A stretch of 20,980 bases of DNA from a virus: positions 1-20,980 of the IMG/VR virus record IMGVR_UViG_3300043469_001135; one strand, written 5' to 3'. Positions 881-8,245 of this stretch are shown here, piece after piece. A model generated the notes under the pieces. The model saw nothing but the letters and a program-made list of their open reading frames with translations, made no database searches and was not told the DNA's origin. The position numbers and the translations under genes are program-made. Position 1 is the first letter of the stretch, and the number at the start of each line of letters is the position of its first letter.

Positions 881-903
881 CTTTACCTTATAAATAGGTA
901 AAG
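881..903 (+). promoter_or_regulatory. Hairpin with late promoter box in its loop
   Basis: CTTTACCT (881-888) and AGGTAAAG (896-903) form a perfect 8-bp stem with a 7-nt loop, TATAAAT. The loop plus the first stem base reads TATAAATA (889-896), an exact T4 late promoter -10 box. The G of the downstream GTG start (903) and the weak SD-like AGG are in the right arm. RNA reading through from the helicase would bury the start; a late transcript starting about 6 nt after the box would lack the left arm. Sequence is seen; the function is inferred from the same layout in T4 genes e and soc. Confidence 0.6.
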
Positions 904-1346
904 TGAAAATTTTTGACTACTACAAAAACGATAAGTTAAAATCCAATATTCAAGCCTATCGAGAAGGTCGCCGCGATTTTAGCGTAGAAGAACTTAACGA
1001 TATAAAGCTTTATATTTCAAGGTATAAAGATACAATAGACAATACCAATTTTTTTACTGGGTCGATAAAGGAATATAAGGTAGTAAGCTGCTTTGCAGAG
1101 GATTTTTACGAAGAGCTTCACTCAAGAATGATTAAAAATTTCGGAGCTGATATCGCGATAATTGTTATTCTAACTGAGCGAAGAATTATTTTTAAGAAAA
1201 ATAACAAAACATGTAAACTTGATTTGTGCAAGCTCGCACATATTCTAAGCGATGGTGAGTGTGATGAATCTTCAGTTGATCTTGCTGCAGGTAAAATGAC
1301 AGATAACTTTATTAATTTAACAAAGAAATTTATACAATGTTCATAA
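903..1346 (+). CDS. Hypothetical protein, 147 aa, late-type start
   Basis: I do not recognise this protein with confidence. It starts at GTG; an in-frame TAA lies just upstream and no good alternative start exists until much later. The N-terminal part is charged and helical. The C-terminal part (about residues 105-145), with the sequence GECDESSVDLAAGK, faintly recalls the end of a DHHA1 nucleic-acid-binding domain (GGGGH..AAG in real members), but the glycine run is missing and no DHH catalytic half is present, so this is a weak hint only. The next gene overlaps it by 10 nt. A TATAAATA box ends 6 nt before the start, suggesting late expression in addition to read-through from the helicase. 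Confidence 0.7.
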   Translation: MKIFDYYKNDKLKSNIQAYREGRRDFSVEELNDIKLYISRYKDTIDNTNFFTGSIKEYKVVSCFAEDFYEELHSRMIKNFGADIAIIVILTERRIIFKKNNKTCKLDLCKLAHILSDGECDESSVDLAAGKMTDNFINLTKKFIQCS

Positions 1347-3150: not shown

Positions 3151-3593
3151 ATATAACTCCTGATGAACAACGCGCGTTAGTACAGTTCTTCGGAACTGTA
3201 CACGCGCAAGCTAAGCAAACTGATCAAATGATCGTAGGCAACTCACAGTTTGTTAAGCCTGTAAGCCCTACTATTCAACATCAACTCGAGCAGGCTCTAC
3301 GTATCCCAGTTCAAGCCGATCAACAATTTCAACACCAGCAACAATATATAGAGCAACCTCCGATTGAGGTAGTACAGCCTACACACGCTATGCAAGAACC
3401 GCAAGACTTGCAGAGCTCGCCACTCGTAGCTCCTACCTATGAAGAAGTAAGACCTCACCCAGTTAGCATTTCAACTAATGATAATGTAATTGAGGTATTA
3501 AAAGAAATTAACTTGAATTTAGCTCGAATAGGAGATATACTAGAAAAACAAAATGGTAAACCAAAGAGAACTAACGCTCCAAAATCGGATTGA
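3147..3593 (+). CDS. Hypothetical Gln/Pro-rich linker protein, 148 aa
   Basis: I do not recognise this protein. Its start overlaps the gp32 stop (ATGA), with AAGGA just upstream as ribosome binding site. Residues 1-25 look helical; residues about 40-105 are rich in Gln, Pro and Val with low complexity, likely disordered; residues 110-135 (NVIEVLKEINLNLARIGDIL) form a heptad-like amphipathic helix, and the tail is basic (KPKRTNAPK). This layout of helix, linker, coiled-coil-like helix and basic end suits an adaptor rather than an enzyme. It sits between gp32 and the sliding clamp, so a replication-related role is inferred. The sliding-clamp gene starts 41 nt inside its end. Confidence 0.75.
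   Translation: MNITPDEQRALVQFFGTVHAQAKQTDQMIVGNSQFVKPVSPTIQHQLEQALRIPVQADQQFQHQQQYIEQPPIEVVQPTHAMQEPQDLQSSPLVAPTYEEVRPHPVSISTNDNVIEVLKEINLNLARIGDILEKQNGKPKRTNAPKSD
3172..3207 (+). ncRNA. C(UUCG)G-capped RNA hairpin just after gp32
   Basis: GTACAGTTC (3180-3188), loop TTCG (3189-3192) and GAACTGTAC (3193-3201) form a perfect 9-bp stem closed by C-G around a UUCG tetraloop. GCGCGT (3172-3177) and ACGCGC (3202-3207) extend it by 6 bp past a 2-nt TA bulge. It begins 21 nt after the gp32 stop, within codons 9-21 of the next gene. There is no U-tract, so it is probably not a terminator; it may stabilise the gp32 mRNA 3' end or slow translation of the next gene. Such CUUCGG hairpins are known to be common in T4 intercistronic RNA. 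Confidence 0.75.
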
Positions 3594-6750: not shown

Positions 6751-7790
6751 TAAGTATTCCGGAAGAATATACTGTGAGTAAATTCTTTCAGTATATATAT
6801 CAGCCTAGATTTAATAAATTCAATAATACCTATCAAGGTGGGTGCTGTATATGTAGAGAGGGTGGATCTTTAGGTAAAAAGCGTAGATGTTACTATATAC
6901 CTAAAAATGATAATATTTTTTGTCATAATTGCGGATGGTCAGGTAAGCCGATAAAATGGGTTAAGGAAGTATCAGGTAAGACAGACGCAGAGATTATAGA
7001 TGAGATTAGACAGTATGTAGATGATCAGGATACTATAGAAGTCTCGGAGCAGGAAGTAATAAAGATTAAGACTGAGACACTTCCAAAAGATTCAATAAAT
7101 CTAAGTGATGCAACTCAAATTGAGTTCTATAAAGGTAATCCAATAGTAAGTGCGTGTGTTAAGCTAATTAAAGAACGAAGATTAGACACAGCTGTTAATA
7201 AGCCTGATTCGCTTTATGTATCACTTGTTGATAGAGTACACAAGAACAGGCTTGTAATACCTTTTATCAATGAGAATAAAGATATTGAGTTCTATCAGTC
7301 TAGAACTGTTGTGGCTAATGATAGTAAAATGAAGCCCAAGTACATATCTAGAGTAGGAGCAGAAAAGACTCTTTTTAATATCGATAGAATAAGCGACTAC
7401 TTTAAAAATGTTTTTATTTTCGAAGGACCTTTAAATGCTTTCTTTACTAAAAATAGTGTTGCTGTAGCTGGAATTACAGATAGAGGTAATGCCACCTTTA
7501 CAACGAGACAGCAGCAGCAAATAGATACAGTCTTGAGATGGTACAATAAAATATGGGTATTAGACAGTCAGTGGGTAGATGATGCTTCTTTAAGTAAGTC
7601 TGAGATACTTCTTAAGAATGGCGAGAAGTTATTTATATGGCCTGAGAAATTTGGTAGACGGTTTAAAGATTTTAATGATATATGTATAGCGTGTAACGTT
7701 AATGAAATATCACATGAATTTATAGAAAAAAATACCTTCGAGGGACTCGAAGGTATTTTTAGACTCGCTAATATAAAAAATAATCGTTAG
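6747..7790 (+). CDS. 61: DNA primase, T4 gp61 type (zinc ribbon plus TOPRIM)
   Basis: The primase makes RNA primers for lagging-strand synthesis with the gp41 helicase. The N-terminal zinc ribbon has CCIC (33-36) and CHNC (59-62) followed by GWSG. A variable linker precedes the catalytic part, which includes KPKYISRVGAEKTLFN (196-211), the TOPRIM glutamate in VFIFEGPLNA (222-231), and the acidic strand IWVLDSQ (269-275), where classical TOPRIM domains have DxD; here the third residue is Gln, with D278 and D279 nearby. Length is 347 aa (T4 gp61 is 342). The gene starts in an ATGA overlap with the 5' nuclease. Its last codons form a terminator hairpin, and its stop overlaps the stop of the convergent gene. 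Confidence 0.86.
   Translation: MISIPEEYTVSKFFQYIYQPRFNKFNNTYQGGCCICREGGSLGKKRRCYYIPKNDNIFCHNCGWSGKPIKWVKEVSGKTDAEIIDEIRQYVDDQDTIEVSEQEVIKIKTETLPKDSINLSDATQIEFYKGNPIVSACVKLIKERRLDTAVNKPDSLYVSLVDRVHKNRLVIPFINENKDIEFYQSRTVVANDSKMKPKYISRVGAEKTLFNIDRISDYFKNVFIFEGPLNAFFTKNSVAVAGITDRGNATFTTRQQQQIDTVLRWYNKIWVLDSQWVDDASLSKSEILLKNGEKLFIWPEKFGRRFKDFNDICIACNVNEISHEFIEKNTFEGLEGIFRLANIKNNR
7728..7760. terminator. Bidirectional intrinsic terminator inside the primase 3' end
   Basis: AAAAATACCTTCGAG (7728-7742) and CTCGAAGGTATTTTT (7746-7760) are perfect complements of 15 nt around a 3-nt GGA. On the plus strand the stem ends in a T-run. On the minus strand the A-run becomes a T-run (preceded in 5'-3' sense by the same stem), so RNA from both convergent genes (primase and the 7787-8212 gene) can be ended. 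It encodes NTFEGLEGIF of the primase. Confidence 0.82.
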
Positions 7791-8212: not shown

Positions 8213-8245
8213 ACAATTATTTATTCAAATGCATAAATATTTACA
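8213..8245. promoter_or_regulatory. Divergent pair of late promoter boxes
   Basis: This 33-nt gap between divergent starts carries AATAAATA on the minus strand (8218-8225), 5 nt before the ATG at 8212, and CATAAATA on the plus strand (8232-8239), 6 nt before the ATG at 8246. Each differs from the T4 late box TATAAATA in the first base only. Neither gene has a visible Shine-Dalgarno sequence. If T4 start-site geometry holds, both RNAs would begin at or next to the start codon. Confidence 0.6.

Follow-up and report, generated by a model that had tools for sequence, protein, structure and literature searches.

In the window analysed here (the whole stretch of 20,980 nt, IMGVR_UViG_3300043469_001135 positions 1 to 20,980, to which all coordinates refer), a short open reading frame (ORF) stands behind a replicative helicase gene, and its GTG start codon lies at the edge of a hairpin that overlaps a candidate late promoter box. 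The locus raises the question of whether the hairpin and the box form an expression switch, and what such a switch would release. A preliminary description had proposed control of the T4 e and soc type, keeping a 147-aa protein silent until late infection.

The hairpin between the helicase gene and the 147-aa ORF

The upstream gene (3-872, + strand, 5' end cut by the window) encodes a gp41/DnaB-type helicase (PHROG 19, E 3e-60) and is the presumed source of read-through RNA. The 147-aa ORF (903-1346, + strand, GTG start) runs in the same direction, with the hairpin site between the two, and the surrounding replication gene cluster includes a gp32-like single-strand binding protein, an RNase H-like exonuclease, and a primase. 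By megablast, the window had no nucleotide match among 50,697 records of cultured phages, and no homologues of the 147-aa protein were found among cultured phages. As far as could be seen, the clade consists of uncultured T4-like phages.

In relatives with the same helicase, this place is occupied by either a short protein or a DHH-DHHA1 phosphoesterase of ~290 aa. By profile comparison, the short protein corresponds to the C-terminal half of its full-length neighbours (E to 1e-46), and the alignment of the 147-aa form is limited to residues ~150-294 of the long one. The DHH half went undetected in eight contigs that have the short gene, all of them incomplete. The match and the missing half indicate that the gated product is a remnant of the DHHA1-like type, lacking the catalytic domain. 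Its predicted structure (pLDDT 88) matches DHH/DHHA1 proteins modestly (TM ~0.45), and the short form had no match in Pfam, including the DHHA1 model, or in PHROGs. Compared with DHH-DHHA1 phosphoesterases (NrnA, RecJ, PAP phosphatase), the product is homologous to the DHHA1-containing half, whereas it has no N-terminal DHH catalytic domain and has lost the GGGH motif seen in the long form. Loss of the catalytic domain with retention of the promoter and start was observed in many lineages (seen in the window at 903-1346 and in L021, L048, and L049).

The hairpin with TATAAAT as its loop, the late box, and the GTG at the stem edge were confirmed at 881-905 by sequence and folding, as originally described. 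Positions 881-903 read CTTTACCT TATAAAT AGGTAAAG, forming a perfect stem of 8 bp with a loop of 7 nt. In RNA folding, the stem is lengthened by pairing of UUC (878-880) with GAA (905-907), with U904 bulged, and therefore both G's of the GUG are paired. In the read-through RNA, the left side of the structure thus comprises the arm CTTTACCT (881-888) and its lower extension (878-880), and the right side, in which the start codon is buried, comprises the arm AGGTAAAG (896-903), the bulged base, and the lower stem (together 896-907). The box TATAAATA (889-896, + strand) ends 6 nt before the GTG (903-905). It had been placed in the loop, which holds for 889-895, but its last A (896) is the first paired base of the right arm.

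The T4 late box spans -13 to -6 (PMC2988020), so the late transcript is predicted to begin at the start codon or one base before it; in the window, the predicted +1 is 902 (+ strand), one base before the GTG. Such an RNA would lose the left arm, as had been claimed, but it would begin at the 3' edge of the structure and not inside a surviving one. When the RNA was cut to 902, the predicted energy for opening the start region dropped from 8.1 to 0.3 kcal/mol.

The 81-nt fold had a z of -2.8, with equally good folds in 1 of 200 shuffles, and no match was found in Rfam. Stems of at least 8 bp also occur elsewhere in the window (19 nested hits vs. ~6 expected), and TATAAATA is not enriched in it (6 found vs. 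6.8 expected), for which reason the late-box count was dropped as evidence. For so AT-rich a window, the stem alone or the box alone is unremarkable, and the case therefore depends on comparison. What appears remarkable is the combination of stem and box with the start codon, together with its comparative history.

Other structures were seen in the window and in relatives. At a point of gene convergence, the 3' end of the primase gene contains a 15-bp inverted repeat (AAAAATACCTTCGAG-GGA-CTCGAAGGTATTTTT, 7728-7760) that resembles a bidirectional terminator embedded in coding sequence. A 9-bp stem with a TTCG tetraloop and no T run (3180-3201) lies near the start of a 148-aa gene, which directly follows the gp32-like gene. 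In one relative, a tape-measure-like late gene that starts with GTG (L094, 5608-7059) has a predicted start hairpin stronger than that at 881-907, and in another, ARAGORN made a doubtful tmRNA call with an unusually long tag peptide (L101, 4252-4661, - strand).

Conservation of the box and the stem among relatives

The distance from the end of the box to the start codon, usually GTG, is 5-7 nt at most of the corresponding junctions, and the flanking bases vary. Most lineages with the 147-aa gene have a stem that was kept, re-made, or moved to a new place, and the start stays buried; in every such case, an RNA from the predicted late start would be left without the left arm. In L009, the stem (TTCTATC/GATAGAG) pairs one register over from that of the window, and unrelated stems of at least 9 bp are present in L011, L043, L044, and L078; the stem of L010 is weak. 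In a second clade (L022-L042), the bases between box and start pair with the first codons, placing the hairpin 3' of the box. In this clade, 94.9% of the cells are paired, 3 pairs have both sides changed, and covariation is 0.300, compared with at most 0.157 when slid. The register-fixed covariation count was applied to the second clade only, and the window-type stem was tested by shuffles and opening energy, because the pairing register differs by one base between relatives (window vs. L009). In both geometries, the left arm is almost entirely upstream of the predicted +1, placed as in T4.

The effect on the start codon was estimated as the predicted opening energy of the read-through RNA minus that of the late RNA. 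The median difference was 5.9 kcal/mol in 17 short-gene lineages and 1.3 kcal/mol at 103 other late starts of the same phages (p 3e-7), with a 9-nt start region as the measure, chosen after the first result had been seen. The first measure, the three start bases alone, gave p<0.05 in 15/46 sequences vs. 9/106 controls, and it was poorer because the U of the GUG is bulged in several lineages. In box-preserving shuffles, p<0.05 was obtained in 8/17 representative lineages with the 147-aa gene (Fisher combined 7e-11), in 3/9 lineages with full-length DHH (combined 0.006), and at 6/103 other late promoters of the same phages (combined 0.42); the lineages share ancestry and kinship was ignored, so the p-values of both tests are optimistic.

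The comparison thus supports the proposed logic of a hairpin over the start with a late box within it, since the box is kept and the stem persists in some form in most lineages. According to the preliminary description, relatives that keep neither the stem nor the box would speak against the switch; this is not what was found, though in the large clade with full-length DHH (L049-L076) the box is kept and no stem was seen.

Late promoters and start codons across the clade

In five large relatives, late boxes end 5-6 nt before start codons (e.g., 36/48 in G004), whereas in a 50-kb region of T4, 13/17 boxes are located 21-40 nt before starts and 0 at 5-6 nt. The box precedes 20/33 orthologues of T4-type late genes vs. 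0/58 early ones (p 9e-12), being sought 4-8 nt before the start in the early-gene count in relatives. Boxed late orthologues include the sheath, portal, neck, and prohead protease genes. In the window, the genes for the 141-aa, 109-aa, and 509-aa proteins have the box and the replication genes do not. A gp55 homologue is encoded in five relatives (G001-G005). With a TATAAATA-like box at late and not at early genes, and with gp55, these elements resemble the gp55-dependent late promoters of T4 and can be assigned, as predictions, to that type; the clade differs in the distance from box to start codon.

Few ORFs have a Shine-Dalgarno motif upstream: 4-9% in the relatives and 5% in the window, compared with 56% in T4, 64% in CP220, and 48% in HTVC008M. 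Since these motifs are rare and the late boxes end 5-6 nt before starts, the late mRNAs should be leaderless: judged by promoter-to-start distance, no leader would be left. The major capsid gene, which has a long leader, is an exception to the box-start rule. Upstream of this gp23-like gene (L099; L104 and L116, both - strand), a leader hairpin of varying sequence (GAGGTG..CCACCT, GAGGTTATAATATAACCT, GAGGTCCTCTTGACCT) is followed by the Shine-Dalgarno-like GAAAGGAAA.

In the window, a 33-nt gap (8213-8245) contains two late boxes facing in opposite directions, from which the 141-aa (- strand) and 109-aa (+ strand) genes would be transcribed divergently as leaderless messages; similar divergent pairs are present in relatives. 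Rhodothermus phage RM378 (L203, 1-50000), another distant T4 relative, has a different box, TATTTAA, whose end is exactly 6 nt from the start codon in six genes; this suggests leaderless transcription there as well. A literature search largely confined to non-subscription journals turned up no paper describing late transcripts without leaders in T4-like phages.

The proposed switch and its alternatives

The sequence comparisons establish the anatomy of the site, the spacing rule, and the structural conservation, and the element is probably a gate on the start codon, suited to late mRNA that has no leader. Early in infection, read-through RNA from the helicase gene would fold the hairpin and hide the GUG from ribosomes. 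Late in infection, RNA polymerase with gp55 would start at ~902, and the RNA, beginning A-GUG and lacking the left arm, would be translated as a leaderless message. A single 30-nt element would set both early silence and late expression, and the 147-aa gene may thereby be silenced until late infection, as originally suggested.

This layout is close to that of T4 e, soc, 49, and I-TevI, also found in I-TevII/III, segB, and Aeh1 mobE, in which a hairpin over the initiation region silences late genes in long early RNA (PMC3014915, PMC2988022). As in that type, a late gene lies in an early transcription unit, the long-RNA hairpin hides the initiation region, and the late promoter is placed such that the late RNA would lack the left arm, given a +1 as in T4. 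In T4 e, soc, 49, and I-TevI, however, the late RNA keeps a freed Shine-Dalgarno site, with experimental support (PMC3014915, PMC2988022), whereas here, as read from sequence, sequestering applies to the start codon only, no ribosome-binding site would be kept, and the late RNA would carry its start codon at the 5' end. The comparison with e and soc therefore stands for the buried start codon and the late promoter overlapping the hairpin, but the predicted +1 at 902 frees no Shine-Dalgarno site. A T4 lysozyme-type switch exactly as first proposed shares the box-in-hairpin layout known from T4 e, soc, 49, and I-TevI (PMC3014915, PMC2988022), and AGG (896-898) can be read as a minimal Shine-Dalgarno motif; this AGG precedes the predicted +1, stands just 4 nt from the GTG, and is not conserved among relatives, and such motifs are rare in the clade, which makes the original version quite unlikely.

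The palindrome could instead serve as a DNA operator, with the late promoter repressed by a protein bound there, which might be the gene product itself; I-TevI, which represses from an operator of its own, offers a precedent (PMC2988022). The window stem is indeed a perfect DNA inverted repeat, but the arm sequence is not conserved across lineages and the inverted repeat of the second clade sits 3' of the box. In some lineages, the sense RNA is also more stable than the antisense, because of G-U pairs (L013, -12.0 vs. -4.3; L030, -9.4 vs. -2.0; L022, -12.7 vs. -8.2), although overall this difference is only weakly positive (median 0.45 kcal/mol, p 0.04). An operator is accordingly an unlikely reading. 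The hairpin is directly 3' of the helicase stop, and T910-914 follows a few bases past the stem, as would suit a transcription terminator or an RNA-processing signal ending the helicase mRNA. The stem is AU-rich, however, and is followed by GTGAAAA instead of a U tract, which is also missing after the stems of L011, L043, and L022, so that a signal of this kind seems improbable. Nor is it at all probable that TAAATA is a Kozak-like translation-initiation element of a host without Shine-Dalgarno sites, with no promoter and nothing leaderless. In Flavobacterium, A's upstream of the start, at -3, -6, and ~-12/-13, do tune translation (PMC6847099), but the T4 late consensus is matched, gp55 is encoded, and the motif precedes late and not early orthologues; on this early/late contrast, the Kozak-like reading of the box was rejected.

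For the start-codon gate, the efficiency of a leaderless GUG is relevant: such a GUG is a poor start in E. coli (<10% of AUG) but equals AUG in mycobacteria (PMC4633059), so efficiency here would depend on the host. A search of genome contigs for the host gave nothing useful. A Bacteroidota-type host would agree with the rarity of Shine-Dalgarno motifs (PMC6847099), although in Flavobacterium most mRNAs have leaders. As in the leaderless genes of mycobacteria and Deinococcus, a promoter element puts the predicted 5' end at ATG or GTG (PMC4633059, PMC3160421), but here this is tied to a phage late sigma factor and to one temporal class.

In a whole clade of uncultured T4-like phages, it is likely that most of the late regulon has switched to leaderless mRNAs, with the box as a start-codon locator 5-6 nt upstream, and that the hairpin switch was rebuilt to gate a 5'-terminal start codon and not a ribosome-binding site. 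The textbook T4 switch would thus be extended to phages with apparently leaderless late mRNAs, which suggests selection on concealing the start codon itself. One phage class is predicted to use two modes of translation initiation in time, leadered early and leaderless late, and a simple rule of box-to-start distance can serve to annotate the late genes of the clade. More surprising than the hairpin switch is the apparently leaderless late regulon.
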